Shown here piece by piece: positions 3,672 to 50,084 of a stretch of DNA of 64,000 nt. Under the pieces are notes generated by a model that saw nothing but the letters and a program-made list of their open reading frames with translations, had not been told where the DNA came from and made no database searches. The position numbers were made by a program, and so were the translations under genes. Each line of letters opens with the position of its first letter. Position 1 is the first letter of the stretch. The DNA comes from Cephalotus follicularis (Eukaryota; Streptophyta; Magnoliopsida; Oxalidales; Cephalotaceae): the NCBI GenBank assembly GCA_001972305.1, contig BDDD01002899.1, positions 1-64,000 on the forward strand. Direction: 5' to 3'.

Positions 3672-3981
3672 CAGTCGGCTGTCCCCTCATGACAGTCGGC
3701 TGTCTTCCTTCAACAGCTGGCTGTCCTAGCTCTGGCAGTCGGCTGCCTCCCTTAACAATTGGCTGTCTCCTTTTGACAGTCGGCTGCTCTCCTCATCCAG
3801 TCGGCTGTCCTTTCTTGGCAGTCGACTACTCAACCTTCTGCAGGTATGTTCTACTAAACGTATGAACAGTCGACTGGTTCTTACGTCCAGTTGGCTGTTT
3901 CCTATTGAGTAGCCGGCTGTTTACACTGAACAGCTGCCATTTCTAGCCCGCCAGTCGGCTGCCCGCCTTGGCAGTCGACTG
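3672..3981. promoter_or_regulatory. Phased GTCGAC-type motif island, B LTR, first
   Basis: About fourteen copies of CAGTCGGCTG or close variants start at 3,672, 3,693, 3,714, 3,736, 3,756, 3,777, 3,798, 3,819 and then 3,867, 3,888, 3,910, 3,931, 3,952, 3,972. Nearly every step is 20-22 bp. On the element's sense strand the motif reads CAGCCGACTG, which contains GCCGAC. A regulatory role is inferred from the core and phasing, not shown. Confidence 0.7.
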
Positions 3982-4521
3982 GATTTACATCAGTAGGTAA
4001 AAACAACAGAAAAATGCATGTCTTTCACACTTTAATCCAACCAAACACGAGCATTCAACAGCAATAACATACATTTATGCTCATAATACAGTCCATACCA
4101 TGCATTTCGTCCATTAACTTTTATTATAACGGAACTTAAATAACAATTATGAAATTACCCCTACCTTAGAATTCCAAGTTAGGAATTGCAATATACCTCT
4201 TTAAGTTCCAATCCGAGTTTCCAAGCCTTCGAATTCATCCAGCAACTCCACCAACTCTGGTTCGAGCTCCAAGTCCAGATTCCAAGCTCAAAATTGGATA
4301 GATACAACTTCTCTCTCTTTTTTTTCTCTCCACCGCCCTCTCCCTCTTCGCAACTCTCTATCTCTTTGAATTTGCTGATGAGAAGAGAAAAGAAAGTGTG
4401 TTTTTATTGCCATTTTCGTGTCTCTCTCTCCATAACCCCACAACTGAGCAATTTTGTCCTCTCCCCCTTTCTCTCTGCCAAAAACATACTGCCAACACGT
4501 TTTAACTGACCTATCCCATGG

Positions 4522-4651
4522 AAGTCGAGTGCCTTATCTTGGCAGTTGGCTGTCTCTGCCGACACCATCCCCACCCGGCTGTCTCTCATAATAAGCAGCT
4601 GGTTCCACCCAAAGGGGGTTCAGTCGACTGTCCTTCCTGGGCAGTCGGCTG
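4522..4651. promoter_or_regulatory. GTCGAC-type motif island, B LTR, second
   Basis: Variants of the same decamer start near 4,522, 4,543, 4,572, 4,596, 4,621 and 4,642. Two pairs have exact 21-bp steps, while others are 24-29 bp. It lies close to the U3 end of the minus-strand LTR. Confidence 0.6.
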
Positions 4652-4795
4652 CCCGCCCTGTATCCGCACTTTTCACACTTCAACTTTTGCTCAAATTTAA
4701 CATTACAAAAAGTAAAAGTCATAATTCTCATTAATCAATTGCGTAAATGCATTGGAAAATACAACATTACATTAATGAAAATCCCGGGCGTCACA

Positions 4796-6568
4796 TCCAC
4801 CCCTCATTCATGGAATTTCGTCCTCGAAATTAAAACGACACTAAAGCAAATGAGGATAACGCTCTCTCACTTCCTCCTCGTATTCCCAAGTCGCCTCATC
4901 GGGTCGATGAAACTGCCACTGAACCTTTACCGTAGGAATGGTTCGGTTCCTCAATACATGCGTCTTCCGATCCAGAATTTGTACCGGTAACTCCTCGCAA
5001 GAAAGATCATCTCGCATAGGAACTGAGTCATAATTCAAAACATGTGACGGGTCTCGAATATACCTTCTCAACATAGACACATGGAAGACGTCATGCACAT
5101 TCAACAGTGCAGGAGGCAAAGCAAGCTGATAAGCCACCTCCCCGACTCTCTCTAAGATCTCGAAGGGACCAATGTAGCGCGGAGCTAACTTGCCCTTCAT
5201 CCCAAATCTCTGTACGCCCTTCCAAGGCGAAACCTTCAGAAACACATGATCACCAACGTCGAAGGTCAGAGGCCTCCTCTTGACGCTGTCCACATAGCTC
5301 TTCTGCCTGCTTTAAGCAGCAAGTAGTTTCTCCCTGATGAATCTAACCTTCTCATAAGTCTCCTCTACCAGATCCGACCCAAGCAAAGGTCGCTCACCAA
5401 TCTCATCCCAACAAATGGGTGATCTACACTTCCTCCCATACAGTGCCTCATTTGGTGCCATACCAATACTGGAATGATAGCTGTTGTTATAAGAAAACGC
5501 TATCAGAGGAATGTGGTCCTCCCAAGTACCAGCAAAGTCAATAATGCAAGTTCGAAGCATATCCTCCAAGGTCTGGATGGTACGCTCCGACTGACCATCT
5601 GTCTGTGGGTGGAAGATAGTGCTAAGGTTCAGCTTCGTCCCAAAAGCTGTCTGAAATCTCTTCCAAAAGTAGGAAGTGAAGATCGAATCTCTGTCACAAA
5701 CTATACTCTCAGGGACACCGTGCAACCTCACGATCTCCTTGATGTATAATCGAGCTAACTTGCTCGCTGAATCAGTGACATGGGTAGGCAAAAAGTGTGC
5801 CGATTTAGGAAGCCGATCCACAATGACCCATACCACATTGTGACGGTTCTGAATCAGAGGAAAACCCGAAACAAAATCCATCGTCACATGCTCCCATTTC
5901 CATCCAGGAATTGGTAACGGCTGCAACAAACCCGCTGGCCTCTGATGTTCGGCTTTAACTGTCTGACAAGTATAACACTTTGCCACATACTCGGCGATCT
6001 CTCGTTTCATGCCAGGCCACCAGTAATCTCTCTTCATGTCTTGGTACATTTTTGTAATACCAGGGTGAATGCTGTACTGAGATCTATAAGCCCCGCAAAG
6101 CAACTCACTCTTCAACCCTGGTTCATTCGGAAGACACACACGTCCCCAAAATCTTAAGACACCATCGACATGTATCCGAAAATCGGACTCCGAGTCCAGA
6201 TTCTCTCGAATCTTTTGCAATTCAGGATCGTGTGCTTGAGCGTTCTTTATTTCGTCAAGCAAAACTGGCTGTACACTCATGCTAGCCATAAAGACTCCAG
6301 GTGACTGATTGAACAGAAACCACTCTTGGAAGTCTTCTAACATCTTCCATTGCGACACCATCGCAGTGGCAACCATAGCCTTGCGGCTCAAGGCATCAGC
6401 GACCACGTTCGCTTTCCCGGGATGGTACTGAATACTGCAGTCATAGTCATTAAAGAACTCAACCCATTGCCGTTGTCTCATGTTCAGCGTATCTTGACAG
6501 AAAAGATACCTCAAACTCTTGTGGTCAGTGAAAATCTCAAACTGTGCCCATATAAGTAATCTCTCCAT
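4796..6568 (-). pseudogene. Chromovirus B integrase with chromodomain
   Basis: This minus-strand pol segment starts with the tail of RNase H ([16 protein letters not shown]). It continues with the integrase zinc finger (H and H around HPGITKMYQDMKRDYWW, then CYTC) and the catalytic core with D in MDFVSG, D in CDRDSIF and E in GQSERTIQTLEDML. After a frame break near 5,300 come the GPY-type module (APRYIGPFEI) and a chromodomain ending EATWEYEEEVRERYPHLL. Integrase would insert the cDNA, and the chromodomain would guide it to histone-marked chromatin. All key integrase residues are visible. The stop and frame break before the chromodomain make it a pseudogene. It ends about 45 bases before the 3' LTR. 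Confidence 0.93.
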
Positions 6569-7541
6569 TTCTGAAGAGCAAAGATAATCGTGGCCAATTC
6601 AAGATCATGCGTCGAGTAGTTCTCCTCATACGGCTTCAGCTTCCATGAAGCATAAGTGATCACTCTGCCTCGTTGCATCAACACACAACCCAACCCCTTA
6701 CCCGAAGCATCACTATAGACTGCGAATCCCTCGTTACCTTCAGGTAACGCCAAAACAGGAGCGGAAACAAACTGATCCTCCAGATCACAAAAACTGGCTT
6801 CACATTCATCATCCCAAATAAACAAAGTCTTCTTTTGAGTAAGCTTCGTCAACGGTGTAGCTATTCTCGAGAATTTCTGAATGAACCTCCGATAATAACC
6901 TGCCAAACCAAGAAAACTGCGCACCTCAGTCACATTCCTTGGTTGCGGCCAATCTCGCACCACCTCAGTCTTCGACGGATCCACTGCCAAACCCTCTCTA
7001 GATACTATGTGACCAAGAAAAGTCACATGATCAAGCCAAAACTCGCACTTGCCAAACTTGGCAATCTCAGATGATAGGCGTGTTCCTCTTCACTCCTTGA
7101 GTACACTAGTATGTCATTACTGAACACCACTACAAACCGATCCAGGTACGGCCGGAACACATCGTTCATTAGTGACATAAACGCTACCGGTGCATTGGTG
7201 ACACCAAATGGCATTACCAAGAACTCATAATGACCATACCTAGTCCGAAAGGTAGTCTTCTATATATCTCCTTCCTTCACTCTGAGCTAGTGATAACCCG
7301 ACTTCAGGTCGAGTTTGGAGAACACCCTTGACCCTTGTAACTGGTCAAACAAATCTTCGATATGTGGAAGAGGATACTTATTCTTGATAGTAGCCTTATT
7401 CAGCATCATGTAGTCGATGCAAAGCCTCATCAGCCCATCTTTCTTCTTCACAAATAACACTGGAGCGCCCCATGGAGAAACGTCGGGCCGTACAAAACCC
7501 TTATCAATTAGGTCTTGCAACTGCAACTTCAACTCTCTCAA
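6511..7541 (-). pseudogene. Chromovirus B reverse transcriptase and RNase H
   Basis: The RT fingers and palm are recognisable ([39 protein letters not shown]), followed by the palm end ([12 protein letters not shown]). The catalytic box that is normally Y/F-x-D-D reads F-S-N-D (codons at 7,113-7,124), so the first catalytic aspartate is asparagine. RNase H follows with [13 protein letters not shown] and [12 protein letters not shown]. Stops or frame breaks lie near 7,285, 7,065 and 6,565. It is a dead polymerase from an autonomous-type element. Confidence 0.92.
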
Positions 7542-8312
7542 CTACGCAGGAGCCATTCGAAAAGGCGCCTTAGAGATAGAGGCCGTACCTGGTACTAGGT
7601 CAATCACAAACTCCATGCTCCTCCTCGGTGGCAAGGACACCAAGTCTGCAGGAAACACATCTGGAAATTCATTCACAACTGGAAGTTCCTCCAGGATCTT
7701 ACCTTTCTCTTTTCTCTTGTCAACCACATGCGCCAGAAACCCTTCACACCCTTTCTCTAGGTACCTCGATGCCCGAATAAAAGATATGATCGGTGTCCAG
7801 AACCCTTTGTTTCCCTTGAACCGTATAGTAGTTCCATCTGGTAAGCAAAAATCCACAGTCTTATTATAACAGTCCATGCATGCACGGTAAGCTGACAACC
7901 AGTCCATACCCAAGATGACATCAAAATCAAGTATGGGCAATACGATCAAATCTGCATACACTGGAACACCTGCCATATACATCTCACAACCTCTATACAT
8001 GGAATATGTACACATGGAGCCTCCAGTAGGTGTACTCACATCATGAACATAGGGCATGTAGTCAAGAAACACATTTAAACATGATGCAAAACGGGAAGCA
8101 ATAAAAGAATGCGATGCTCCCGAGTCCATCAACACTCTAGCAGAAAAACCATAAACATATACAGTACCTCCCACAATAGAAGTAGACTCTGGAACCTCTG
8201 TCTGAGTGAGAATGAAAACTATACCTTTCACGACACCCTTGTCGGTATCTCTCTGCTGTGACAGTCCAGGTGCCAAACCACTACCACTCACTGGCCCAGT
8301 AGGTGCTATCAT
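7542..8312 (-). pseudogene. Chromovirus B aspartic protease
   Basis: An open stretch of about 256 codons carries the retropepsin signature LMDSGASHSF near 8,120 and the flap-side ILGMDWLSAY near 7,890. A linker to RT follows (FPDVFPADLVSLPP). The DSG catalytic triplet is intact. The protease would cleave the gag-pol polyprotein inside the particle. The frame is open on its own but is separated from RT by a stop just after 7,542 and from gag by breaks near 8,310-8,590. Confidence 0.92.
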
Positions 8313-9475
8313 CTGACCCCTCGGGCAATCCCTCGCCAGGTGGCCAGATTCCCCTCATCTCATACACAGCCCTTTCTTCAACCAATAGTCCTTCTGAATG
8401 TGACCCATACTGCCGCAAGCAGAACAAGCTCCAGGCCTCGTGTTACTCCCCTGACTGGCAGACTGGTTGGATCTATTCTTTGGTGACTTTGTTGGAGAAC
8501 CGCTACCCTGCCATTTCGATGATGCTGGCCTAGACTGAGTAGATGTCTGCTTACTCTACTGTGCTCGGGCCCTCTCAACCTGGTCTTCATTCAGTACACT
8601 CTCTATTAATCTCGCCTTCTGGGTGACTTCCACGAAAGTACCTAGCTCTATAACTCTGATCCGAGACCGAAGATCCGGTCGCAGACCTCTCAAAAATCTC
8701 TGAATCTTCATTTCTTCATCTGCCACCAGATAGGATGAATGTCTGGAAAGCTCCACAAATCTGGCTTGATACTCGGCCACGGTCATTTCACCCTAACGCA
8801 GCTCCAAGAGCTCTGTCTCTCTCCGTTCACGCTTTATGCGTGGCACATAAGCCACTAGAAACTCGTCCTGGAACCCATCCCAGGTACTGGCAACCCTAGT
8901 GGCTTCCCATTTAGCTTTAACCGCCTCCCGCCAGTGGGTGGCCTCTCCCCATAATCGGTACACAGCAAACCTCAGTTTCTGTTTGTCGGTGCATTCCATC
9001 ACCTTGAAGATCTTCTCTAGATCCTGTAACCACCTTTCAGCCATAGTAGCATCAAGCTCCCCTTTGAAACTGGGAGGATTCTATCTCATGAACCTCTCAA
9101 GGTTCCTTCCAAACCGATTACCGTCATCATGCATGCCCTGAGCAGAAACCATTTGATGAGGCTGAGCTTGAGCATACAATATCCGCATCTCCTCCATATT
9201 CGCTGCATTAGCAGCAATCTGTTGCTGATTAGCAACTATCTGCTACTGGATGTAGTCAGCGATGCGGTCCATCAGATCTCTCACCCCAGGTGCCGCCTCC
9301 GGAACATTCATGTTGGCAGCCCCCTGTGGAACATCATTCATTGGTTCTCCCCCAAGATTCACCTCCTCGGGAACACCCTCATCAACAACTCTACGCCTTC
9401 CGCGTCTCCTTTACTCGATTGGTTCCTACAAGAAGGGTGACAGTTAGTCACGACTTTAGTAAAAAAATTCATTGA
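8313..9475 (-). pseudogene. Chromovirus B gag with degenerate CCHC knuckles
   Basis: The retrotransposon gag domain is visible as RWLQDLEKIFKVMECTDKQK (near 9,030), WDGFQDEFLVAYVP, MTVAEYQARFVELS and FLRGLRPDLRSRI, in pieces split by stops near 8,790 and 8,555. Downstream, two nucleic-acid-binding knuckles can be read near 8,440-8,345. The first runs CSACGSMGHIQKDY, with tyrosine in place of the last cysteine. The second starts CMR, then has a stop codon, then GESGHLARDC. Gag would form the particle and package RNA. The start is not certain. The N-terminal region has poly-Ala/Gln-like character near 9,200. Confidence 0.9.
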
Positions 9476-9515
9476 TTGCCGAGGAAAATTTCCTAGCTAA
9501 GCATATTTGGAATAT

Positions 9516-9527
9516 GCTCTGATACCA
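9516..9527 (-). other. Primer-binding site of chromovirus B
   Basis: The plus strand reads GCTCTGATACCA, so the sense strand reads TGGTATCAGAGC, complementary to the 3' end of plant initiator Met-tRNA. Four bases separate it from the LTR. Confidence 0.92.
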
Positions 9528-9531
9528 CTGC

Positions 9532-10078
9532 TGTCACACCCCGTTCCCGATATCACAACATTAAAGCGGTAAAGGCAATCAATATAACATTATCCAGCTT
9601 ATACAAAAATGATAAAATTTAAAACTTCAATTCCATTCACATGTGTGGAAGCATTTAACAACAAGCTAGATAAACAAACCAAATCATGCGTCCCATACCA
9701 CATGATTCCAACATTAACATAATTGAGCCATCGTCAATTACCTATAACGGAGCGTGATCATAGTCAATCAACATCATTAATAGATTAATCCAAAATAATA
9801 TGGGTCTCAATACATTGTTAAACATTTATTTAAACAATAAAACTCCATCTCCCCACAGATTCACCGCGTACTATCGACATCCACATCACTGCATCAATCT
9901 GCAATAGTAGGGGGTTAGCCTTTGTCCTCACTCGGCCAAATCATAAGTGTAATTCAAGGTCAGTGATAATGAATGTCATGAAATGAATGCACTCATGATG
10001 CAATATGTAATATATCGCCACACGTACATATGCATATGTATATATATATATATATATATGAATGCACTCATGATGCAA
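9532..10078 (-). repeat. 5' LTR of chromovirus B, truncated
   Basis: It is collinear with 2,975-3,522 of the 3' LTR, including the (TA)n run at 10,039-10,059. It then stops inside the second copy of the 76-bp duplication and joins copia A gag without a target duplication. About 1.27 kb of the LTR is missing. Confidence 0.9.
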
Positions 10079-10721
10079 TTTTTAGTCTTCCCCTTCTCAA
10101 GGTTGGACTTGCCCTTCCTCTTGGGCCTACGGGATTGTCCTACCATCATGACTGGAGCCTTGCCCTTATTCATGTTCACTTTGGCTTCCCTCAGCATGTT
10201 TAGAAGATCAGGCAGTGTAGCTGATATCCTATTCATGTTAAAATTGGTGATGAAACCAGAGAAGGAAGGTGGAAGTGAATAAAGGATCAGATCTGTGCTT
10301 AATTCAGCATCTTGAATGATGCCAAGAGCAGCAAGACATTTAATTGCATTGATCATCTTAAGCACATGATCATTAACAGAAGACCCTTTAGCCATTTTAG
10401 TGCCATACAGCTCAGCCGTGAGATGGAACCGAGCATTTCTACTATTCTCTCCGTATAACTCACGGAGATGCAGTAGAACTTCCCTAGAGTCTCGCATTGA
10501 TTCATGTTGGACTTATAGGGTATTGCTCATCGATGTTATTAGGTAGCTTCTAACTTTCTTTTCATCAGCCACCCATTTCCTATAAATGGCATGATCTTCG
10601 TTTGAGGCATCTTCAGCAGGCAGTGCTGACATAGAGGTCTCTAGGACATAATCTATGCCCTCAGAATTCAAAACTATTTTGACATTCTATAGCCAGTCCA
10701 CATAACTTGGACCTGCCAGCT
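10079..10721 (-). pseudogene. Copia A gag fragment
   Basis: This minus-strand copia gag (UBN2-type capsid) segment shows SYVDWL near 10,690, EDASNEDHAIYRKWVADEKK near 10,590, a long open part starting at 10,497 (LLHLRELYGE, KMAKGSSVNDHVLKMI) and a basic tail RRPKRKGKSNLEKGKTKN just before the junction. A stop interrupts the part near the N-terminus. The zinc knuckle, protease and integrase that should follow are gone, replaced by the broken end of the B LTR. The N-terminal 15-25 residues are cut off by repeat C at 10,722. Confidence 0.88.
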
Positions 10722-11302: not shown

Positions 11303-11305
<3 letters not shown>

Positions 11306-18261: not shown

Positions 18262-18470
18262 CGTCAACGCTTTAAAACAAAGCGTCGACGTTCATGCGTT
18301 AAGCGTCCATGCAAGTGTCGACGCTACGCGCAGTTTATCCGGGCTTTACTACGTAAGCGTCAACGCTTTTCTCAAAAGCGTTAACGCTTAACTACGTAAG
18401 CGTTGACGCTTTTCTCAAAAGCGTCAGCGCTTATGCGTCTTCGTGCGCTTATGCGTCTTCGTGCGTTTAT
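18262..18470. promoter_or_regulatory. Phased GCGTCGACGC island in the A leader
   Basis: Cores of the AAGCGTCGACGCTT dialect sit at 18,263, 18,284, 18,305, 18,317, 18,359, 18,380, 18,402 and 18,423. All but one step are 21, 22 or 42 bp. Several are decayed to GTCAAC, GTTGAC or GTTAAC. The island lies directly downstream of the primer site, so it would be in the untranslated leader. Confidence 0.7.
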
Positions 18471-22394: not shown

Positions 22395-22590
22395 GGCTCA
22401 TCTTGGTCGGTGATCAGTCGGCTCATCTCAGTTGGTGATCCGACGGCTCATCTCGGTCAGTGATCCATTGAGCTATCTCGGTGATCCCGTAGGCTCATCT
22501 CAAAGATAGCCTTGCTGGCTCATCTCAATCGGTGATCTGACGGCTCATCTCAGTTGGTGATTAGTCAGCTCATCTCAATTGATGATCAGG
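22395..22590. repeat. 25-bp repeat array in M 3' LTR
   Basis: GGCTCATCTC-type units start at 22,395, 22,420, 22,445, 22,470, 22,492, 22,517, 22,542 and 22,567. Every step is 25 bp except one of 22. Units end GGTCGGTGATC or decayed forms. The sense strand of that part reads GATCACCGACC, with an ACCGAC core. Confidence 0.92.
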
Positions 22591-26445: not shown

Positions 26446-27234
26446 AAACTGTAACGCCCCAAACACCGAGGGTCAACCACCAAGATTTGACGCCCTACTA
26501 ACAGTATCATTCATTATCCAATATTCAGCGGAAATTAAAACATTTAAAACAATACAATGCATGCGGAACAGTCCAAATGAAATATCACATTATGTGGATA
26601 AACCCAGTGTTATACAATATAGTTCACAAACATGCTCTGCCATAATCCGGCAGGTCATATAAATATAACAAAGTGGGTCGCCGATCTGCTGTAGAGGAGG
26701 CTCACCCGAGGCTTCAATGTTCAGCTCGCTGCAATCTCTACCTGTACCTGACCCATTACATAAAAATGTAATGGGTCAGTGACCATTGGTCGTGTAGGAA
26801 CTACCACCATGCATTTGTGAAATGCAGTTGCAGCAAGCATATGCAATGCAAATGAGATGCAATAACAGTTCAATCCAATCAATAACATTCACTAGAAATC
26901 AATAACAGTACAGTCTATTCCATTCAGTACAGACACAGTCACAATAAGTCCTTTATAATCATTGATAATTACTAACAGTCATATAAATCCTTCCTCGGCA
27001 TCCCTTACTTGAGGAGGAGCGATAACGTACTCTAGACATTAAGGTAGAGGAGTCGAGACAGGAATATACATTTCATTTTAGGCAGTCCGGTTCCTCGGGT
27101 TCCTCGGCTATAGGAAGAGCAATATACACGCTCTAGGCGTTATAGGCAGAGGAGAGGAACATAAACATTATACGGTATTAGTAACAATCATTTAGTACAC
27201 TATATACAGTAATAGTAATAGTAACAGTTAGTAT

Positions 27235-27440
27235 GGCTCATCTCGGTCGGTGATCAGTCGGCTCATATCAGTTGGTGATCCGATGACTCATCTCGGTCGG
27301 TGATCCATTGGGCTATTTCGGTGATCCCGTAGGCTCATCTCAAAGATAGCCTTGCCGGCTCTTCTTAATCGGTGATCTAACAGCTCATCTCAGTTGGTGA
27401 TCAGTGAGATCATCTCAATTGGTGATCAGGCACAGTACAG
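27235..27440. repeat. 25-bp repeat array in M 5' LTR
   Basis: Same array as at 22,395-22,590 (GGCTCATCTCGGTCGGTGAT-type units), with independent point changes. Confidence 0.9.
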
Positions 27441-33107: not shown

Positions 33108-33782
33108 AACTCCCACTAAATCAAGCAATGATTTTAATCTTCCAAGTGCCAAAATGCATAAAATCCAATTTTATACAAAAACAGTTTTTTTTTTTAATAA
33201 AAGACGTCGACGCCTTTCCAAAGGCATCGACGCGTTTTCTGGAAAAGTTTGAACAAGGCAGCGATGCAAAAACAGAGCATCAATGCGTTTTCCAGTAGGG
33301 TTGAAAAAGGCATCGACGCCTTACCAAAGACGTCGACGCGTTTTAGAAAATATGATGCAGACATCGACGTCTTACCAAAAGACATCGACGTCTTTACTGG
33401 GAATTGACATGACATCGACGTCTTAACAAAAATCCTGGAAATTGCAAATGACATCGACGTCTACCATAAGACATCGACGTCTTTATCCCCCTGGGCATTT
33501 TCTGCATTTCGAAAAATATTGAAATCAATGGTTTAGATTATAGAATACCATTCTGGTATTCCTGAATGCACCATGCATGTTCCAAACTTAATTCTAAACA
33601 CATATATGCAATATTCCCAGTACAAAAACACACTGAAATCCAATTTCATGTAATTTTCATTAAGGCACTTAGAAAATTTTAGTTTGACCATAATAACACA
33701 TCCAATGATTAAACCATTAATCAGAACATCATCTAAGGCATACATATTCAATTAATGATGTTGTGGGACGCTCTGATACCGC
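33108..33782 (-). other. Primer site and leader of element E
   Basis: Reading minus, the primer site (complement of GCTCTGATACC, 33,770-33,780) is followed by about 290 bp of AT-rich leader and then a phased ATCGAC island. No gag is found. The leader ends at a polypurine-like tract at 33,108-33,120. Either E is a very short non-autonomous element or its body was deleted. Confidence 0.55.
33203..33483. promoter_or_regulatory. GACATCGACGTC island in the E leader
   Basis: Cores occur in pairs 20 or 21 bp apart: 33,206/33,226, 33,312/33,332, 33,363/33,384 and 33,453/33,473. Weaker copies lie near 33,260 and 33,279 and a single one at 33,414. Gaps between pairs are 30-40 bp. The core is ATCGAC or GTCGAC. 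Confidence 0.7.
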
Positions 33783-34583: not shown

Positions 34584-34910
34584 GGTGAATCGCATGTGCC
34601 TCCTACCCATCTGTCATTCTTGTCTCTGCACATGCCAGGAATCTGTCCTGGGCAAATCCAGTCGATTGGCTATAGTGGGCAGTCGATTGCCTTCAACGTG
34701 CACCAAACAGTCGACTGTTGCCCTGTGACAGTCGGCTGTTTGAGCTGGTTTAGAGATTCTTAACTTTGATACTTCTCCAATTGTACGTTTAATCGTCCTA
34801 AACAAGTACCAATCATAGAATTTAATATAATTGGACAAATAACTCAATTAAAATGTATATTTAACTTAAAATTGGATCAATATACATTAATTGAAGTAGT
34901 GGTTATTACA
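34584..34910 (-). repeat. G-type LTR fragment with GTCGAC island
   Basis: It is homologous to 17,180-17,518 of G1, ending GGTTATTACA at 34,910. AGTCG cores sit at 34,660, 34,681, 34,709 and 34,730 (steps 21, 28, 21). It interrupts the RNase H of copia F on its right and is cut by E on its left. Confidence 0.8.
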
Positions 34911-36200
34911 GAAAACATACCCCGTGAGAGATCTCTTCTTATCCATGTCGCCTGCATAATCAGAATCCAAATAACCCACAACATCCACACTGTCAGCTCC
35001 ACCGCTACCATAGACTAAGCCAACATCTGTAGAACTTCTCAAGTACCTCATTATCCATTTCACAGCATCCCAGTGAGCTTCACCTGGATTAACCATATAC
35101 CTGCTAACAACACTCACAGCATGTGAAATATCTGGCCTAGTGCACACCATGGCATACATCAGACTACCAACTGCACTAGCATATGGAACACGAGACATGT
35201 GCTCCACCTTAGCCTCAGTCTTTGGCGATAATGAATCTGACAACTTCAAATGTCCAGCCAACGGAGTACTTACTGGTTTAGACTTTTCCATTCCAAATCT
35301 CTCAAGCAAATTCTCGATATACTTTTTCTGAGATACATATAACCGTCTTGCTTGACGATCCCTTTGAATCCTCATACCCAATATCTTCTTGGCTGCACCC
35401 AAATCCTTCATTTCAAATTCACCACTTAACTGAGCCTTCAATCAGTTGATCTCGAATTTATCCTTCGGCGCAATCAACATTTCATCAACATACAAAAATA
35501 GATACACAAAAGAACCACCCAGGAGTTTCTTCAAGTATACACAGCTATCATACTCACATCGACAATAACTGTTCTTGATCATAAATGTATCAAACCTTTT
35601 ATACCACTGTCTAGGGGACTACTACAATCCATACAAGGATTTCTTAAGTAGACACACATGATCTTCTTTCCCCCAAAAATAATAACCTTATGGCTGGGAC
35701 ATGTAAATATGTTCATCTTACTCACAGTGTAATAATGTTGTCTTGACATCTAGTTCTTCAAGTTCCAAGTCTTGACAAGAAACCATAGCAAAAAACACGA
35801 GTATCGAGCTATGATTCAAAACTGGAGAAAATACTTCATGAAAGTCCACTCCCTCCTTCTGAGTAAAACCCTTAGCTACTAAACGTGCTTTGAACCTTCT
35901 TGCCTCAACCCCTGGTATACCTTCCTTTTTCTTGAAGATCCACTTACAGCCTACAACTCGTTTCCCCTTTGGCAGCTTTAACAACTCCCAAGTCTTGTTC
36001 TTTTCAAGAGACTGAATTTCTTCATTCATGGAAGTTACCCACTCCGCTAATTCTTTGCTTTTCACTGCTTCCTTATAAGTGACCGGTTCTTCTCCTTCAA
36101 CACTTTCAGCGACTGACAAAGAAAAGGCTACCATGTCTGCATGACTGTATCTCAATGGTGGTCTAATCTGCCTACTCTCTTTGCCTCTAAAAATACTGTA
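34911..36200 (-). pseudogene. Copia F reverse transcriptase and RNase H
   Basis: This minus-strand Tnt1/Tork-like copia RT (lineage inferred) shows GCKWIFKKKEG near 35,940, ARLVAKGFTQKEGVDFHEVF near 35,860, LYVDEMLIAPKD near 35,490 and the RNase H start with DLGAAKKILGMRI, PDISHAVSVVSRY and YLDSDYAGDMDKKRSLTGY. The catalytic box is Y-V-D-E (35,481-35,495) in place of Y-V-D-D, so the second aspartate is glutamate. Frames break near 35,715 and 35,445. RNase H is cut off after LTGYVF by a G-type LTR, so the polypurine tract and 3' LTR are missing. Confidence 0.92.
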
Positions 36201-38524: not shown

Positions 38525-38527
38525 ACT

Positions 38528-39099
38528 TGATGTAAACTAGCCTCAGAAATCCCTAACAACCTATAGCAAAGTTTAATCAAGCAATGTGATCTACGTCCAC
38601 GGGCAGAGGTAAAATAGTTCTTTCACTATGTAAATATGAGATTACAATGAGTTTCTCACAAACCCTTAGCCCATGTTACACCCAGAAAGACCCACTATCA
38701 AGTGCAAAATTGGCTCTTGGCTGCTATCTCTCCTTTGGATCTCACTTTTCTTGCCTTTTGTCACCTTGACCTAATAGAGGAAAACTTCCCTATTTATATT
38801 AGTCGTGTGGCAGCCGACTGTCTCCTCAAAGAAGTCGACTGTCTCCCCAAAGCATTCGACTGTCCCCTAAAAAAGCTGACTGTTTTATATAAAAAGAATT
38901 CCCCAAGTCGCATCGATAGTTGGCTGTCATCAGCTCCCAGTCGACTATCCTAACATTCCAGTCGACTGTCCATCCTTGATAACTGACTGGATTCTGAAAA
39001 TTAGGAAACAGCTCCAGACTCATCCATCCAGTCGACTACCCATCCTTGGCAGTCGACTGGATTCTGCAGAATTGCAAAAAATTTTAGCCAAACTAAACA
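38528..39099 (-). repeat. 5' LTR of copia F
   Basis: It starts TGATGTAAACTAGCC beside the primer site. A minus-strand TATA box (AATATAAATA at 38,791-38,800) lies immediately next to a GTCGAC island. A plausible U3 end is CTAAACA at 39,099, but no second LTR exists to confirm it. Confidence 0.7.
38811..39061. promoter_or_regulatory. Phased GTCGAC island between LTRs F and J
   Basis: Cores of the CAGTCGACTG/CAGCCGACTG family sit at 38,812, 38,833, 38,854, 38,874, 38,906, 38,918, 38,939, 38,960, 38,981, 39,030 and 39,051. Eight steps are 20 or 21 bp. A minus-strand TATA box lies to its left and a plus-strand TATA box to its right. Confidence 0.72.
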
Positions 39100-39663: not shown

Positions 39664-39676
39664 TTGATATCAGAGC
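39664..39676 (+). other. Primer-binding site of copia J
   Basis: TTGATATCAGAGC differs by one base from the initiator Met-tRNA complement (TTGGTATCAGAGC). Confidence 0.85.
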
Positions 39677-39759: not shown

Positions 39760-40684
39760 ATGATGTATCAGAATTTTAAGGTTCCTTTATTCAATGGTGA
39801 AGACTTTCCTTATTGGAAAACTAGGATGGAAATTTATCTTAAATCCCATAATTTCAAAAATTGGCTTAGTGTAAAAAATGGTCATCATATTCCTTTCTCT
39901 AAAAATGCTAAGGGTGAAATTATTCCAAAACTTGAGTTCGAGTATGATGATGATGATGATTTAAGAAAGTTAACTATAGATAACAAAGCTCTAAACATCA
40001 TTTTAGTTGTTCTTGATAAAAAGAAATACAATCTTGTAAGAAGATGTACCTCGGCTCATGAGGTATAGAATCTTTTGACACTTACACATGAAGGAACAGA
40101 AAAAGTTAGGAATGCCAAACTTGAAATGTTAATTAGAGATTATGAACTTTTTATAATGAAATCAAATGAAACCTTTAAAGATATGTATAATTGATTGGTT
40201 GATATTGTTAATAGTTTGTTGAGTCTTGGCAAGGTGTTTGGTAAAGATGATCTAGTTCAAAAATTGCTTGGTTGCTTGATCCATGAATGGGAACCCAAGG
40301 TGATGGTCATTGAAGAATCAAAGGATCTCATGTGCATGGAGATGGAAGAATTGCTAGGATCCTTGATGACACCTGAAGTCAAATTAAGCAAGAAATCGAA
40401 ACAGCTTGAGGAGAAGAAACCTCAAGAAGAAAAGCAAAAAATATTACTCTCAAAAGTGCTCCTTTGAAAGTAAGTGATGATGAAGAAGAAAACGATAAAG
40501 TTGACTTTGTTCTCTTTGCTAAGAGATATAAAAAGTTCATCAAATTCAACAAAGGGAGATGGAAGCAAAAAGGACTTCAGCCATCTAACATACTTTGAGT
40601 GTAACAAATTGGGTCACATGAGGGCCGATTGTCCCATTCTCAAGAAAAGAAAATCTTTCAAAAAGGCTCTCAATGCTTGGTATC
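39760..40684 (+). pseudogene. Copia J gag (UBN2 type), interrupted by LTR K
   Basis: The start ATG at 39,760 opens YQNFKVPLFNGEDFPYWKTR, the N-terminal DUF4219-like segment. The UBN2 capsid part follows (THEGTEKVRNAKLEMLIRDY, LLGCLIHEWEPKVMVIEE), then a Lys/Glu-rich linker and a zinc knuckle near 40,600 that reads YFECNKLGHMRADC, with tyrosine for the first cysteine. Stops near 40,066 and 40,192 and a frame change near 40,465 break it. It is cut at 40,684 after KKALNAW by the TGTTG start of another LTR. This gag style belongs to Sire-like copia elements (inference). Pol is absent. Confidence 0.9.
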
Positions 40685-40803
40685 TGTTGACGATCTAGTC
40701 TCAATCCTTGTTTTGATGATAACATATTTGCATTTAACAAGTTCACCTGATGTGCAAGAAATTACAAGTTCAATATCAAAGCAAAATACCATCTGCAGAA
40801 GAA

Positions 40804-41352
40804 GACATCAACTCTCAACAAATGACATCGACGTCCGTACAGAAAGACATCGACTCTAAAAGAAATGACATCGACGTCTTTAGTGCAAGATCAAATTACA
40901 ATGAAGACATCGTCCTTCCAGTAATGACATCAACGTCCGTACTGAAAGACATCGACTACTTCCAAGATGACATCGACTACTTCCAAGATGACATTGACGT
41001 CTTTTGTGCTAGAAGCTACAATATAAAATTGCAATTGAAGACATCGATCCCTACATTAAAGACATTGACGTCAATAAAAAAGACATCGACGCCTTTCCAT
41101 AGAGATCGACGCTTTTCTAGAGCAACCTGCATTTCCCAGAAAATGCATCGACTCCCACAGAAGAAGTCGATGAGATGTTAAAAGTGTCAATACCAGGAGA
41201 TTTCCCAGAAAAGACATCGACGCCTTTTAAAAAGACATCGACGTCTTTTTAAATGAACAAGACCCGGGAAACCTGGAACGGCTAGTACAAGCACTTCCAA
41301 CGGCTATCAGCTACAAAGACATCAACGGCCTTTGAAAGAAGTCGACGTCTTT
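40804..41352. promoter_or_regulatory. Phased ATCGAC island in LTR K
   Basis: Cores of GACATCGACGTC type lie at 40,807, 40,827, 40,849, 40,870, 40,909, 40,929, 40,951, 40,972, 40,993, 41,043, 41,064, 41,085 and 41,105, with more near 41,145-41,350. Most steps are 20-22 bp, and two are about 39 and 50. It is upstream of the TATA box in sense orientation. Decayed cores read CATCAAC and CATTGAC. Confidence 0.72.
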
Positions 41353-41454
41353 ATACCAGCAGAGACAATATTCAAAGATTGCAACTACACATTCTTTAAT
41401 CAAAAGCTTCCATAATTGATGCAACGGCTACAAACCTTTTATGGCTATAAAAGG

Positions 41455-43863: not shown

Positions 43864-45290
43864 TTCCCCCCTCCTTACAAAAAATTCATCCCCGGATTTA
43901 GCTTTACATTCCAAACAAGTGTGGGAATGTCTCAATCATCTCAACTTCACATTCCCATGTAGCTTCATCAGCTCCGTGAAACTGCCATAATATGTTCACA
44001 ATAGGAATAGTCTTATTCCTCAACACTTTCTCCTTTCAATCCAGAATCTGTATCGGCCGTTATTCATACGACAGGTCATCACTGATAAAACCAAGGTCAT
44101 AGCTCAATATATGAGAAGGGTCAGGTACGTATTTCTATGGCATGAAAACATGGAATACGTTGTGTACATTAAACAAGTTGGGCGGTAGCACTATCTGGTA
44201 TGCAACTTCCCCAACTCTGTCTAGTATCTCATACGATCCAATATACCGTGGAGCTAATTTCCCTTTCATGCCAAACCTGTGTATACCTGTCGAAGGCGAG
44301 ATCCTCAAAAACACATGATCTCCCTTTTCAAACTTCAACTTCCTCCACCTTTTATCGGCATAGCTCTTCTGCCGATCTTGTACAGCAATCAATCTCTTCC
44401 TGATAATTTCAACCTTATCAGTAGTCTCTTGGACAATATCGGGTCCCAAAACTTGTCTTTCACCCACTTCATCCCAACATATTGGCGATCTACATTTCCT
44501 TCCGTACAAGGCTTCATAAGGAGCCATCCCAATGCTATAATGATAGCTGTTGTTGTAAGAGAATTCAATGAGTGAAATATGATCCTCCCAACTCCCAGCA
44601 AAATCAATAACACAAGCCCGGAGCATATCCTCAAGAGTCTAAATAGTGCGCTCTGACTATCCATTAGTCTGGGGGTGAAACGTAGTACTGAAATTCAAAG
44701 TTGTTCCCATTGCTGCTTGAAACTTCTTCCAAAACCTGGAAGTAAACCTTGCATCACAGTCATAAACAATGCTGACCGACACTCCATGTAGCTTCACAAT
44801 CTCCCGTATATATAATCGAGCCAACTTCTCGATGGAATATGTCGTGTTCATCAGAAGAAAGCGAGCAGACTTGGTGAGTCTGTCCATGACAACCCACACT
44901 GCTTCATGTCTATTCTATGACCTCGGTAGACCTGACACAAAGTCCATGGTCACATGTTCCCACTTCCACTCAACCACTGGTAAGGCCTGTAATAATCCAG
45001 CGGGCTTCTGCTGCTCAGTCTTCACTCTCTGACAAGTCAGACACCTTGCCACATACTCGGTAATGTCTCTTTTCATACCGCTCCACCAGTAATTCCTCTT
45101 CATGTCATGCCACATCTTAGAACTCCCTAGATGAACATTATAATGTGATTTATGAGCTTGCTGTAACAGGTCATTGCTTATGCCCTCATCATCCGGAACA
45201 CATACTCTCCCTCGGAACCTCAGTATGCCATCTGAATGTACGGAGAATTCAGAATCTGAATCTAGGTTCTCCCGAACATTCCACAATTAG
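43864..45290 (-). pseudogene. Chromovirus H integrase and chromodomain
   Basis: The minus strand shows the zinc finger (HYNVHLGSSKMWHDMKRNYWW, CLTCQRVKTEQQ near 45,020), D in MDFVSGLPRS, D in YDCDARFTSRFWKKF, E after a stop in the HPQTNG/SERT region, and [20 protein letters not shown]. The GPY-like module ([19 protein letters not shown]) and a chromodomain ending EATWECEVEMIETFPHLF follow. Stops occur near 44,905, 44,655, 44,630, 44,135, 44,060 and 44,030. The chromodomain is readable only in a broken frame. Confidence 0.9.
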
Positions 45291-46165
45291 GTGTCGCTAT
45301 ACTGGGCAGTCTGAATAGGATCCAGAAGTTCCAGTTACACTCTAAGATTATCCACAATAACTCGTTTGGAAACCATGAATGGATTCCATCTCATAAAATC
45401 CTCCAACAGCTTCCACTGCGAAATCATCACCCCAGCAATCATTGCCTTGTGACTCAATGCATCCGCCACTACATTAGCTTTTCCCGGGTGGTATCAAATA
45501 TTACAGTTGTAGTCATTAAAGAACTCCACCCACCTTCTCTGTCTCATGTTCAGCTTCTTCTGGGAAAACAGATACTTCAAACTCTTGTGGTGAGTGAATA
45601 TCTCAAATTGTACACCATAAAGATAATGTCGCCATTTCTGCAAAGCAGACACTATGGTTGCCAACTCAAGATCGTGTACGGGATAGTTCTCCTCGTACGG
45701 CTTCAACTTCCTCGATGCATATGTAATCACTCGACCACGTTGCACAAGGACACATCCCAATCCTTTCCCAGAAGCGTCGCTATAGACAGTAAGATCATCA
45801 TTACCCTCGGGTGATGCCAACATAGGAGCTGATACCAACTGAATCTTCAACTCCTGAAAACTTGCTTCACAAGCGTCATCCCATACAAAACTCGACTTCT
45901 TCTTAGTCAACCGAGTCAACGGACTCACAATCCCTGAGAACCCCTCAATAAACCTCCGGTAATAGCCACCCAACCCCAAGAAGCTACGAACATCGGTAAA
46001 ATTCTTCGGTTGTGGCCGATCCACAATGCTCTCAACCTTTGAAGGATCCACTGACAGTCCTTCACTCGATACAATATGGCCCAGAAAATTCACACGATCT
46101 AGCCAGAATTCACACTTGCTGAATTTGAGCGGGCAGTTTAACAATAAAGCTCTGCATTGCAGGCA
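45291..46165 (-). pseudogene. Chromovirus H RNase H and end of RT
   Basis: The end of RT ([35 protein letters not shown]) is followed by RNase H ([54 protein letters not shown]). The frame is open from about 46,140 to 45,494. Upstream, faint RT homology continues to about 46,165, where LTR G2 begins. The palm with the catalytic aspartates is missing. Confidence 0.92.
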
Positions 46166-46664
46166 GTTTTGGTGTGTACTCTAGCCAACTCCTGGCACAT
46201 AGGACCACCTCCGTTAGCCAGTGACATCTGCCATCACTCGACTAATCGGCAATAACAAAGACAATCAATTCAGTTTAATAATAATATTACATATATATAT
46301 ATTATGCAATATCAAGTGTTTTCTTTAGAAACATATAACAACCCAGTGATCGTACATCTCATAAGAGGAAAATGATGTCAATTCAATAGTGGTTCTCAAT
46401 TGGAGAACAAAATAGTAGCAGTGCCTCTATCAATAGGAAAATAACAGTAGTTGTATGACAATAAGATTTTCATTAGAAAACCGTTAGAAAATCATTGTTT
46501 ATGCTTAAAACATTAGGTTGGTGAAATTCTTAAATATGTATTCGTAACAATAGAAATTCCACCAAATAACAGTAACAGTAGTTAGAACATAGCCAATCAA
46601 GGATGTTGCAACCACAATCAAGTCAATCAATCAATCCGAGCATTTCTAATCTTGCTATTCTAAA

Positions 46665-46803
46665 GCGTCGACTGCCACTATATAAGCGTCGATCTTTAAT
46701 GACTAGGCATCGACACTACACAGCTTAAGCGTCGACATTCTAAGCCTTATTATGCCATTTTTTGCACCAAAGCGTCGACAATTTCTGTGTAAGCGTCGGC
46801 GCT
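46665..46803. promoter_or_regulatory. Phased GCGTCGAC island, G2, first
   Basis: Cores lie at 46,667, 46,688, 46,709, 46,731, 46,774 and 46,795. Steps are 21, 21, 22, 43 and 21 bp. It corresponds to the CAGTCGACTG island of G1 at 16,077-16,190. Confidence 0.75.
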
Positions 46804-47733
46804 TCTGGCGTTCATACTATTTCCAGGAGCAGTTTCAAAACAGGGGATGCACAAATTCAACCCAAACTCAATCCAAATCAACATGCAATCAGTTATTGAC
46901 CATCACTACATATTATACATATTATAGATTCAAAAACATGTCAAAATCCCCTACCTCAATTGCTATCCCAAAGCCAAATTGGATTGGCCTCTCACTTGTG
47001 TCCAAAGTTCTTCACTTCTGGTTTAATTTCCCAAATTGCAGTAATTAGCCTAAACAATCGCATGTTTACAGGTCTATAAATCAATACCAGTAGTTTATTA
47101 AATTATCTAATCATGACAACTTCGAGGAATCGAATCAGAGGTTATAATTAGATCCGAAATTCCTTCTCTTAATTGACATAACAATTCTTAACCTTGCTTC
47201 ATAAATTAATCCCTTTTTTTGTTACCATTTCCAAGTTTAACATTATGTGCAGTAGGCATGCAAGCAGTACATACTATTGTTAACCTACAACTTCAACCAT
47301 AATTCGAGATTTAGAAGCTTACCCGGAAAGATCAAGGTTCCCAAGTCTCTTGAACTCTCCAATCCTCAATGCAAGCTTTCACAAATCTCCAATATTTCTT
47401 CTCTTCTCTCAGTGTTTTCAACACTCGAATGGCTCAAGCATCAGCTGATATAAGTGTCTAATCTCGTGCCTTTCATCCCCACAGCTGGTTTAACCTTTAA
47501 TGTCCATTCCTCTCTCCCGCATGCATGCCTCCTCTCTTTTGTTCTTTTTCTTAACTTTTGCAGGTTGTGCAGGTGAAGGGAGACATGCAAGGCTCTTAGT
47601 CTGGTATTAACAACAGCTGGCAAAGCCTCTTTTGCATGGCCAACACGTCTATGGACACGTGCCAATGTTCCCATCATTTCAACTCTGCCATTTCCTTCCA
47701 ACTGTCACCTATCCTTGCGCCAGAACACGACTA

Positions 47734-47900
47734 AAGCGTCGTCGGTTTAATCGTGGGCGTCGACACTTATATGCTTCTAAGTGTCGATGCTGGGCGTTTA
47801 AAGGTCGACGGTTGACGCCTTATTTCAGTCTTCAACTGTGTGTATTGTGCACGTGTCAGGGCTTAAAGCGTCGACGGTAAGACTTTGGGCGTCGGCGATT
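47734..47900. promoter_or_regulatory. Phased GCGTCGAC island, G2, second
   Basis: Cores lie at 47,738, 47,759, 47,783, 47,804, 47,870 and 47,891, with 21-bp steps in pairs. It corresponds to the island of G1 at 17,243-17,350. Confidence 0.68.
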
Positions 47901-48048
47901 TGGCACCAGAAATCATTTCTTTAACTTTCCATTTCAGAATTGTATTCCAACTTCATTCATTTAAAAAAAATAACAACATAACACCTCAAAAGTATATTTT
48001 ATTCATCGATGGGTACAAAATACATGAATTGAAATTACGGTTATTACA

Positions 48049-48926
48049 ATTAAAATAATCAAGATTATAGGATGTGGCAGGAGAAATTACCTCAAGAATA
48101 TCCTCAAGAGATGAGTCGGGTACTGGAGAGGGAGGAAATCTTTCTTCCATATCTTGCTCATGTATAGACTGCTCATTCCCAGTCAAGACCTGCTCAACCT
48201 TCTGCTTAGCCCCTGTCGGCACTATCGGGGTCTGCCTAGCCATAAACCTAGCCTCTGTTGGCACTGTCAAGGCCTACCCAACAATCGACACAGCCCATGT
48301 TATGACTCCACTGCCACATTTCCACAAATTCTTTCTTTCTTCATTTATCTCCCCTGAAAGGAAGAATTGGATATGAGAAAAAATCGTTTCGACTCCACGA
48401 AGGTCACATCCATAGTAATGTTAACTTTTTTGGTAGAAGGATTGTAGCAACAATAACCCTTCTGGTGCGTACCATACCCCAAAAAAATACAACTCATTGC
48501 ACACGGATCAAGTTTAGTACGATGATTTGTATGGATGTGAACAAAGGCAACACATCCAAAAACTCTAGGGGAAATCATCAAGACTGAAGTTAAAGAAACA
48601 TGTGCAGATAGAGCCTGTAGTGGAGTATGAAATGCCAACACTTTGGAAGGCATCTTGTTCAGGAGATGAAATGCTATGAAAATTGCATTGTCCCAAAATC
48701 TGTTCAGAACATGACCTCCTATTAACAATGCACGAGCCGTCTCTAGAATGTGTTTCTTCTTCCGTTCAACTACCTCATACTGTAGTGGTGTCTATGTACA
48801 AGATGTCTCATGAAGGATACCATGTTGTTGAAAATATACTTGAAGGTGTTGATTAACATATTCTCCACCATTATTGATACGAAGAACTTGAATTTTTGCA
48901 CCAAATTGCGTTTGTATCATAGTATG
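48049..48926 (-). pseudogene. Copia I integrase, C-terminal part
   Basis: After the L insertion the integrase reads INNGGEYVNQH (near 48,860) and NRFWDNAIFIAFHLLNKMPS, then PRVFGCVAFVHIHTNHRTKL, FLGYGTHQKGYCCYNP and MDVTFVESKRFF. A linker with SPVPDSSLEDILEV follows. A stop lies near 48,343 and other breaks near 48,790. It is truncated by G2 before RT. Confidence 0.9.
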
Positions 48927-50084
48927 TGTTGGCTTTTGCCACCCAGTTATATGTTTTAAAGATTGATATTTCGATGATTAACAAACATGGAATACATGTA
49001 TGCAAATTTTTCTAACTTACAAATTCATATACATACTTAAATTAATGTCCAAAGTGTTGCAAAGCTCAAAACTTCAGGTACAGGCAAAAACAGCCAACTG
49101 CCCAAGATGAACAACCAACTATTTGGTTTCAGTAGTCGACTGTCTAAGGTTGAATAGCCGACTGGAAATACAAAGAATCCCATAAACTGGAATGGCACTC
49201 AACCAACCAACTGGAATCGGAGTCCAGCGACTGCTGAGGAGAAACAGCCGACTGCCAAGAATTGCCAGACGACTGTCCGTTTAGACCAGTAGCTTTTTGA
49301 AAATCCTATATTCCTCAACCAGCCAACTGAAACATGGATACAGCAGACTGTTTAGTCAAAACAACTGACTGTCAAGATCAACCAGCAAACTGCCTGCACC
49401 AACGGCTATAATCATAAATACGCACCATTAGCTCCAGTTGACTACCAAGATAATCCAGCCGACTAGATTGGGTCTGACGTTTAAAAATAGATCCGTTGGA
49501 GCATGTCTTTATAAGCAAAAGTGAGGTATCATTCCAAAGAAGAGATAGCAAGACAACACTCAATTCATTCAAGAAACTCAAAAGCAAACCCACACCTTTC
49601 AAATCAATATCAAAGCTTGTTTCAAGTGCTTTTGTAATCATATTTGAGAGATATCATTTGTGAGCTTTACTTAGCTGTATCAAACCTTTGAGAAGGTTAT
49701 ATCCAAACACAAATCATCTATGTAATCCAAATTTGTAATAGGGGAGTGAACCCTAAGTGAGATAATCAAGAGGAGTGAACTCTTAGTAGGATTATCAAAG
49801 GGGAGTGAACCCTTGCTTGTAAGGTGTTTCGATTTGCACCCGTAACCCAAAATCGAAGTGTACTAGAAGGTGTCTAGTGAAATCTCAAGGAGGTCCTTGG
49901 GAAAAGTGGATGTAGGCAAGAGTTAGCCGAACCACTATAAACCGTGTGTGCAATCTCTCTAACTCTATCTCTCTTTACTCTTTTTTTTTTTGTTTAATTG
50001 TTCTTGAGTGCTTGTTTATTTTTCATAGTTTAAATTGTCTTTTCCGCAAACCCCATCTCTTTAGGTTGCCATATAGGACTTTCA
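48927..50084 (+). mobile_element. Solo LTR L with perfect target duplication
   Basis: It starts TGTTGGCTTTTGCC and ends GGACTTTCA, with GTATG at 48,922-48,926 and 50,085-50,089. A TATA box (CTTTATAAGC, 49,507-49,516) sets the plus orientation. It has a GTCGAC-family island upstream of TATA and the GGGGAGTGAACCC and GCCGAACCACTATAAA phrases typical of Sire-like copia LTRs. It splits the integrase of copia I. Confidence 0.93.
49091..49466. promoter_or_regulatory. Phased CAGCCGACTG island in LTR L
   Basis: Cores at 49,092, 49,113, 49,134, 49,156, 49,205, 49,226, 49,246, 49,267, 49,321, 49,342, 49,363, 49,384, 49,436 and 49,457. Within each group every step is 20-22 bp. The sense strand carries CAGCCGACTG and decayed CAGCCAACTG and CAACCAACTG. 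Confidence 0.75.

Follow-up and report, generated by a model that had tools for sequence, protein, structure and literature searches.

The window analysed here, the first 64,000 nucleotides of contig BDDD01002899.1 of Cephalotus follicularis (assembly of 1,577,397,061 bases in 9,746 contigs), is a nest of long terminal repeat (LTR) retroelements, and twelve islands of short motifs with GTCGAC-like cores are scattered through it. The question that this locus raises is why such islands should recur with the same spacing in elements of different families. Judged from the sequence patterns set out below, each island is probably a promoter-proximal array whose sites bind an activator of dyad symmetry (a homodimer), and such arrays are present in several unrelated LTR-retroelement families of one genome. 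Each site would be a symmetric pair of half-sites read by a putative homodimer; a repeat of 19-22 bp, about two helical turns, would let dimers sit side by side, and selection would retain the half-sites and the length of the spacers but not their sequence. The array would act before the LTR promoter, with a predicted second use before an open reading frame (ORF) of the PF20167 family in the position of env.

Four exact-pair counts and the search for PF20167 covered the whole genome; all other results come from the window or from sampled loci, including a random sample of 20 loci of 10 kb across the assembly contigs (189.4 kb excluding N). Islands of the window are named by their first position.

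A spacing lattice of about two helical turns

The 70 sites of the window that match RYCGAC form 5, 9 and 3 pairs at 20, 21 and 22 bp, and the 66 sites that match GTCGRY form 16 pairs at 21 bp, other lags having mostly 0-4 pairs in both cases; the union of core variants (115 sites) pairs 22 times at 21 bp, with at most one pair at any step from 23 to 27 bp. The random sample has the same pattern, with 48 pairs of the union at 21 bp, 15 at 20, 10 at 19, 7 at 22 and at most one at any step from 23 to 27 bp, and with 39 pairs of RTCGAY at 20-22 bp versus 0-1 in each of 20 shuffles. Genome-wide, exact pairs of the 10-mer CAGTCGACTG number 8,471 at 20 bp, 25,896 at 21 bp, 2,777 at 22 bp and 2,754 at 23-27 bp combined (among 50 listed plus-strand places of this last class, counted by hand, 47 were at 27 bp, two at 26 and one at 23), and the corresponding reversed-pattern controls number 36, 89, 7 and 7. 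An earlier note on this DNA, made from the letters alone, had claimed that steps of 20-22 bp dominate; window, random sample and genome-wide exact pairs all peak at 21 bp, and the genome-wide peak is sharp.

Arrays were also called by a neutral rule, namely at least three cores, each with at most one mismatch to GTCGAC, linked by 20-22 bp and including at least one exact core. The rule finds 22 arrays in the random sample and 0 in 20 shuffles; with other steps it finds 0 at 12-17, 24-26 and 31-39 bp, 2 at 27-29 bp and 5 at 41-43 bp (steps of 10-18 bp were counted in the random sample only). When all 64 palindromic cores were scored in this way in the random sample, only ATATAT (23) scored higher than GTCGAC (22), followed by TATATA (21) and AAATTT (18). 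The twelve islands listed in the earlier note fare unequally: eight satisfy the strict rule, and those at 4,522, 17,243, 18,262 and 40,804 require a looser core or mixed steps of 27-28 bp, under a chaining rule that favours the lattice. The program TRF found a 21-bp period within three of these four (4,522, 18,262 and 40,804).

Secondary peaks in the random sample, at 42, 48-50, 62-63, 69-71 and 90-91 bp, are explicable as combinations of steps of 21 and about 28. The proposal that all sites face the same side of the helix survives as a lattice of about two turns but not in its strictness; the phasing is loose, since steps of 27-28 and of 48-50 bp are frequent and one class of sites steps at 19 bp.

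Counting the word itself is less informative. GTCGAC occurs 91 times in the random sample versus 15.5 expected from dinucleotides (5.9-fold; 7.1-fold in the window, first-order model), and under the first-order model its z in the sample is the highest among 6-mers with more than two different letters. Under a fourth-order expectation the excess falls to 1.5-fold in the sample, where GACGTC ranks above it, and GTCGAC is absent from the six palindromes listed for the window. Because the fourth-order expectation removes most of the excess, the argument rests on spacing and not on word count. An unbiased search of 6-mer spacings placed GTCGAC at 21 bp tenth, nine further words with steps between 18 and 64 bp ranking higher, and for this reason was not used as the main test.

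Conservation, symmetry and dialects of the sites

Nine pairs of related array-bearing stretches (69-87% BLAST identity) were aligned and scored in both directions, the sites being taken each time from one of the two sequences alone. The pooled count leaves out the LTR pair L001/L004, which is near-identical. Pooled identity is 0.909 in cores (588/647), 0.888 in arms (382/430), 0.717 in spacers (782/1,090) and 0.831 in flanks (11,658/14,031), the rows being non-independent (shared sequences, both directions), so that p-values are descriptive only. A neutral simulation of the bias that arises from choosing sites by their core puts core identity at about 0.77 when spacer identity is 0.71 and, interpolated between rows, about 0.86 at flank-level divergence. 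CpG is retained at 95 of 111 positions in cores versus 192 of 303 in flanks. Alignment gaps open about 2.6 times less often within arrays (0.0125 per column versus 0.0326 in flanks); since the arrays have fewer gaps but diverged spacers, the length of the spacer is kept and its sequence is not. Half-sites and spacer length are held while the letters of the spacers drift, faster than those of the flanks. Pair by pair, with sites taken from either sequence, the 10-bp motif is more conserved than the spacer in eight of nine pairs and more conserved than the flank, clearly or slightly, in six. The claim that spacers differ freely while the core is kept is thus confirmed. Neither of the conditions that the earlier note set for its own refutation holds, since the 21-bp peak is present genome-wide and the spacers are less conserved than the cores. 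The further claim of selection on protein-binding geometry is supported by a constraint on the core beyond the neutral level and by the constraint on length, and is weakened by the three pairs in which the motif does no better than the flank.

The faster divergence of spacers than of flanks also suggests exchange or turnover of units besides drift. Fifty listed spacers comprise 36 distinct sequences up to strand, in 12 clusters.

The bases on either side of the hexamer (-1/+6) are complementary in 144 of 175 on-lattice sites (32 arrays) versus 86 ± 5 after shuffling; the complementary arms are A..T in 105 sites and C..G in 36. The loci L001-L004, which overlap locus L025, were excluded from this count, from the survey of array contexts and from the test of TATA direction given further below. 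When every exact GTCGAC in the random sample is considered, on or off the lattice, the arms are complementary in 62 of 91 versus 35 expected. The core is not the one motif of the earlier note but a set of related, GTCGAC-like dialects: A-GTCGAC-T (dialect 1, half-site A-G-(T/C)-C), C-(G/A)TCGAC-G (dialect 2, C-(G/A)-T-C) and C-GTYRAC-G (dialect 3, C-G-T-(C/T)). Sites with A..T arms take the GCCGAC/GTCGGC form 31 times (16 arrays) versus 9 for ATCGAC-type and deaminated forms together, and sites with C-type arms take ATCGAC/GTCGAT 48 times, GTTGAC/GTCAAC 16 times and GTTAAC 7 times versus 5 for the GCCGAC class. The association of arm type with tolerated core change has an odds ratio of 49 (p 4e-15), L025 being excluded and 33 sites with other arms lying outside the test. 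That the arms predict the tolerated core change suggests a protein that would read two identical half-sites and that comes in two or three related specificities, and each dialect may have its own factor. Many arrays are uniform in dialect and some are mixed; L025 has a single GACATCGACGTC site in phase inside a CAGTCGACTG array.

Two observations concern the strand of asymmetric sites. Those of dialect 1 are sense-strand GCCGAC at 3672-3984 (gypsy LTR), 49091-49466 and L025 1554-1841 (copia-type LTRs), and their orientation relative to transcription may be kept in this dialect; the array of L005 at 8126 has asymmetric sites in mixed orientation. The arrays of L007 (3414-3700) and L046-L051 are mostly GTCAAC or mostly GTTGAC, one strand form prevailing in each, which is unlike the outcome of random CpG decay.

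Position of the arrays in LTRs, leaders and before PF20167 ORFs

Arrays are shared between a gypsy element and copia-type elements. Islands 3,672 and 4,522 both lie within the 3' LTR of an element with a minus-strand gypsy-type pol, probably of a Tekay-like lineage, and LTR DNA homologous to them was found in L022 and L009. L025 has a copia-type gag (PF14223), and TATA boxes stand shortly after the arrays in both of its LTRs (1938 and 7069) and in the window at 41445 and at about 49510 (copia-type). Islands 18,262 and 33,203 are leader arrays. The array at 38811-39060 lies between elements that diverge from it: on its minus side are a TATA-like word at about 38797 (-) and a gag, both recognised by eye, and a primer-binding site (PBS)-like match at 38525 (-, two mismatches), and on its plus side are a TATA-like word at about 39161 (+, by eye) and a PBS-like match at 39665 (+, one mismatch). 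This array may serve both copia-type elements. One LTR family (start TGTAATAACC, minus strand, by eye) hosts islands 16,077/17,243, 34,659 and 46,665/47,734. Its superfamily could not be assigned, so the LTR that the earlier note called gypsy G is not established as such; the sharing between gypsy and copia-type elements stands.

The second position is before the PF20167 ORF. The eight sites of one L025 array (4,492-4,676) stop some 115 bp short of the ATG of a PF20167-type ORF that is split by one stop codon, the pieces matching PF20167 (Transposase_32) with E-values of 2.6e-6 and 7.4e-10, each below the curated cut-off; dialect 1 predominates both in the LTR arrays of this locus and before the ORF. 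L005 has four sites (5,895-5,962) ahead of a damaged PF20167-like frame, and in L010 the end of a copia-type pol is followed by a pair of C-type sites with a 21-bp step, by TATATAA and finally by a PF20167-like frame. The upstream arrays of these three loci belong to dialects other than 3. In a sunflower Athila element, an additional ORF at the 3' side has been reported to be partly similar to PF20167 (PMC11728184).

For a wider view, 150 PF20167 places in the genome were scored, all of them above the cut-off, and 20 that were spread down the list were fetched with 1 kb of upstream sequence. At least two strict-core lattice sites with steps of 19-22 bp occur in 16 of the 20 upstream regions (those of L029 belong to an inserted LTR). 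GTYRAC occurs 157 times in the 500-bp upstream regions of all 20 loci versus 13.1 expected; without L029 and L044, judged to be interrupted by insertions, all 18 regions have 7-11 GTYRAC sites and 17 have a TATATA-type box. The fetched loci are mutually related, and most of them step mainly at 19 bp, with further steps of 31 and 50 bp. Dialect-3 arrays recur downstream of the ORF in all six of the 20 that were followed, mostly at 19-22 bp, and no gag or pol was matched in these six stretches with the queries used here. Compared with four of their own number as references, the PF20167 proteins from dialect-3 loci show 72-96% identity, and they show 25-30% identity to the dialect-1 type (L005 and the protein P0124); P0124 is 88% identical to the PF20167 piece of L025, and L005 is 66.5% identical to P0124. 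The 13,073 first-look candidates for PF20167 in the genome represent a very large expansion of an accessory gene.

The features of the window are collected in the table. Two other types of array occur in it. One has a period of 25-26 bp and GGCTCATCTCGGTCGGTGATC-like units (22395-22589, 27233-27428, 55344-55510 and 62128-62274), in two other LTR families; its units look roughly symmetric by eye (ATCTC...GGTGAT), and a scan for near-perfect palindromes of 12-16 bp found only 0-2 per stretch. The other, with a period of 22 bp (and about 10-12 bp) and units TGCTCGGGCA or GGCATGCTC, lies within an LTR pair (55703-55825 and 62490-62639).

Table. Retroelement parts and GTCGAC-type arrays in the 64,000-nucleotide window; PBS, primer-binding site
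Positions	Strand	Feature	Details
2974-3522/9531-10079		LTR-like pair	
1-1180/18788-19989		LTR-like pair	
21622-23434/26450-28269		LTR-like pair	
23430-24507/29636-30722		LTR-like pair	
54922-56467/61716-63279		LTR-like pair	
4844-7062, 43910-46126, 56503-58754	-	gypsy pol	
1316-2020, 34902-35348, 39762-40700		copia-type pieces	
2974-4796	-	3' LTR of gypsy element	start TGTGACGCC; end matches 9531-10079 beside PBS-like site 9527; ends by eye
3672-3984	-	array 2 of gypsy 3' LTR	11 sites (loose rule); plus strand CAGTCGGCTG/CAGTCGACTG; steps 20-22, 41-48
4522-4660	-	array 1, near start of gypsy LTR (2974-4796)	degenerate, 5 sites; fails strict rule; homologous LTR in L022
16077-16192	-	six-site array in TGTAATAACC-type LTR	CAGTCGACTG dialect; steps 20, 21, 21, 21, 20; orientation inferred; homologous array in L005
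17243-17350	-	second array of the same LTR as 16,077 (TGTAATAACC-type)	steps 28, 21, 27, 21; fails strict rule
18262-18440		leader-type array	GCGTCAACGC/GCGTTGACGC/GCGTCGACG dialect; near PBS-like 18483 (-, two mismatches); fails strict rule
33203-33480	-	leader-type array	GGCATCGACGCC + GACATCGACGTC dialect; below PBS-like 33781 (-, one mismatch)
34659-34740	-	four-site array in fragment of TGTAATAACC-type LTR	steps 21, 28, 21
38811-39060		array between two divergent copia-type elements	
40804-41350	+	array of about 20 sites (loose rule)	GACATCGAC(GTC) dialect; LTR start about 40683; TATA box CTATAAAAG at 41445; homologous to L013
46665-46800	-	array in TGTAATAACC-type LTR	AAGCGTCGAC dialect
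47734-47900	-	array in same TGTAATAACC-type LTR as 46,665	GCGTCGAC dialect
49091-49466	+	decayed array	CAGCCGACTG dialect; LTR start about 48927; TATA-like CTTTATAAGC, TATAAG at 49510 (by eye); homologous to L008

Competing explanations and known systems

Several results weigh against promoter-proximal arrays of dimer-binding sites. The steps of 27-28 and 48-50 bp, which are common, are not whole helical turns. The motif is level with the flank in three of the nine pairs (0.870 and 0.871, 0.862 and 0.862, 0.900 and 0.899), one pair has equal motif and spacer identity (0.900), and neither the related pairs nor the PF20167 loci are independent, being homologous. When 33 arrays were tested for the direction of a TATA-like word, it pointed away from the array in 9 and towards it in 6, with no overall enrichment, and a clear TATA box looked for near the gypsy LTR arrays was not found. 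L029 and L044 were classed as interrupted by eye, once the strict-core counts had been made, on the basis of six printed sequences out of the 20. Finally, three of eight folded island pieces are far below their shuffles (z -8.9, -8.2 and -4.7) and one is at -3.3, as if the selected feature were an RNA or single-strand hairpin, formed by the pairing of neighbouring palindromes, that affects small-RNA production or packaging. For maize Sirevirus LTRs such hairpins have been discussed, and clusters of palindromes have been linked to small RNAs (Bousios 2016 as cited in PMC10760457). Three other pieces, however, have z of -0.4 to -0.9 and one has -1.8, yet all keep the lattice, and the commonest asymmetric form of dialect 1 (sense GCCGAC; gypsy LTR, 49,091 and L025) would put C opposite A rather than a tolerable G-U pair. 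Since strong folding marks some arrays and is missing from others whose lattice is intact, it was rejected as a general explanation, and selection for a hairpin is considered very unlikely.

An origin of the arrays as plain minisatellites, with 21-bp units made by slippage and then decaying without function, would account for the 21-bp periods that TRF found in several islands; some spacers are interrelated, so that duplication of units, their exchange or copies within a family must play some part. Against this stand a core kept relative to the spacer beyond ascertainment, suppressed indels, retained core CpG, symmetric covariation and the occurrence of the same lattice in unrelated elements. 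Tandem duplication as the full explanation is ruled out by the pooled core and spacer conservation together with the neutral simulation, and a functionless minisatellite deserves hardly any credence. A host stress regulator of the AP2/DREB type (CBF) might instead read RYCGAC, the retroelements having copied a cold/drought-response element. The PLACE entries CBFHV and CRTDREHVCBF2 are RYCGAC and GTCGAC (PMC9138379). RYCGAC on one strand is retained in 39 of 56 on-lattice one-step variants, though by only 4 of the 18 possible variants, with CpG-decay forms accounting for 5 and the remaining twelve forms for 12; all occurrences of RYCGAC-keeping, CpG-decay and other variants in the same DNA number 225, 144 and 335. 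This fits dialects 1 and 2 but not dialect 3, which uses GTYRAC, with forms such as GTTAAC and GTCAAC that have no CGAC. A monomeric CBF site is not expected to have symmetric, covarying arms outside the hexamer, whereas the arms found here are both, and copying of the host element is regarded as unlikely.

The binder might also be encoded by the elements themselves, as an anti-silencing or activating protein like VANC, possibly the PF20167 protein, with each clade matched to its own dialect. Arrays lie directly upstream of PF20167 ORFs, the divergence of the proteins parallels the dialects, the family is abundant in the genome, and VANDAL elements offer a precedent for motif arrays that are read by the element's own protein (PMC5735166). 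The match of clade to dialect comes from two clades, with the upstream DNA of P0124 outside the comparison, so that shared descent explains it equally; several array loci, including the window, gave no PF20167 match with a single query, which may miss distant clades and cut elements; and an AlphaFold2 model of P0124 was unusable (pLDDT 41, pTM 0.22) and gives no DNA-binding fold. A self-encoded binder is accordingly rated as rather improbable. Equally tentative is a more general conjecture of a retroelement "regulatory language", in which unrelated LTR elements would have in common a code of dyad half-sites set two helical turns apart, while arms, tolerated core changes and PF20167 clade diverge together; PF20167 proteins, or paralogues of one factor, would bind their own dialect at the LTR and at the internal promoter, as a counterpart of VANC that other elements would tap in trans.

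Among described site arrays, the Drosophila gypsy insulator is an array of Su(Hw) sites in a 5' leader, in an animal element with another motif and an insulator function. On sequence features the nearest described system appears to be the repeated motifs (RMs) of Sireviruses, palindromes that lie upstream of TATA and again upstream of env and for which no common factor was found (Bousios et al. 2010, PMC2829016). In both cases many short, dyad-symmetric motifs are repeated in the LTR, with arms that differ by element, and an extra cluster lies upstream of an ORF in the env position (here PF20167); the RM of Vitis, CGGTCGACCG, contains GTCGAC, and Tnd-1 has ACAATCGATTGT (PMC2829016). By contrast, 12 of 13 RMs (all but Tnd-1) have CGG-CCG where the arrays here have GTCGAC, RTCGAY or GTYRAC, the RMs are stated to be specific to Sireviruses whereas the arrays here are also found in a gypsy LTR, and the parts of that paper drawn on give no fixed step where the arrays here have one of 19-22 bp (PMC2829016). 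Since both the CGG-CCG core and the confinement to Sireviruses fail, the arrays are not filed as Sirevirus RMs, although by analogy they may work like them.

The VANDAL/VANC system (Hosaka et al. 2017) likewise has motif arrays in non-coding mobile-element DNA, motif types that follow the family and turnover of tandem repeats, but its motif, YAGTATTAY, is not a palindrome and is arrayed in a single orientation, in DNA transposons whose cognate protein is known, versus dyad sites in LTR elements with a putative binder here (PMC5735166). The SIRC of Arabidopsis are short direct repeats with diverse spacers, enriched in mobile elements, which is also true of the arrays here, their spacers being partly related; SIRC differ in having 2-8 repeats of 10-29 bp that vary widely in sequence, about 57% without palindromes, and a proposed origin from miniature inverted-repeat transposable elements, whereas the arrays here lie in or adjoin LTR elements (PMC10342631). 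The exact array pattern had no match in viral_contigs, and the matches listed in a search of open-licence PMC papers for the 10-mer CAGTCGACTG looked unrelated by title.

Palindromic LTR arrays were thus already known from Sireviruses, with no binding factor found (PMC2829016); here the same logic appears in both superfamilies within one genome. They have a measurable geometry (the step of 19-22 bp), a half-site code and dialects, so that the missing factor could be looked for directly with three defined probes of 10-12 bp. The result would also reveal how rival retroelements come to use, or take over, the same transcriptional switch. The arrays further suggest that an accessory gene family, for which this genome has 13,073 first-look candidates, is served by an internal promoter.

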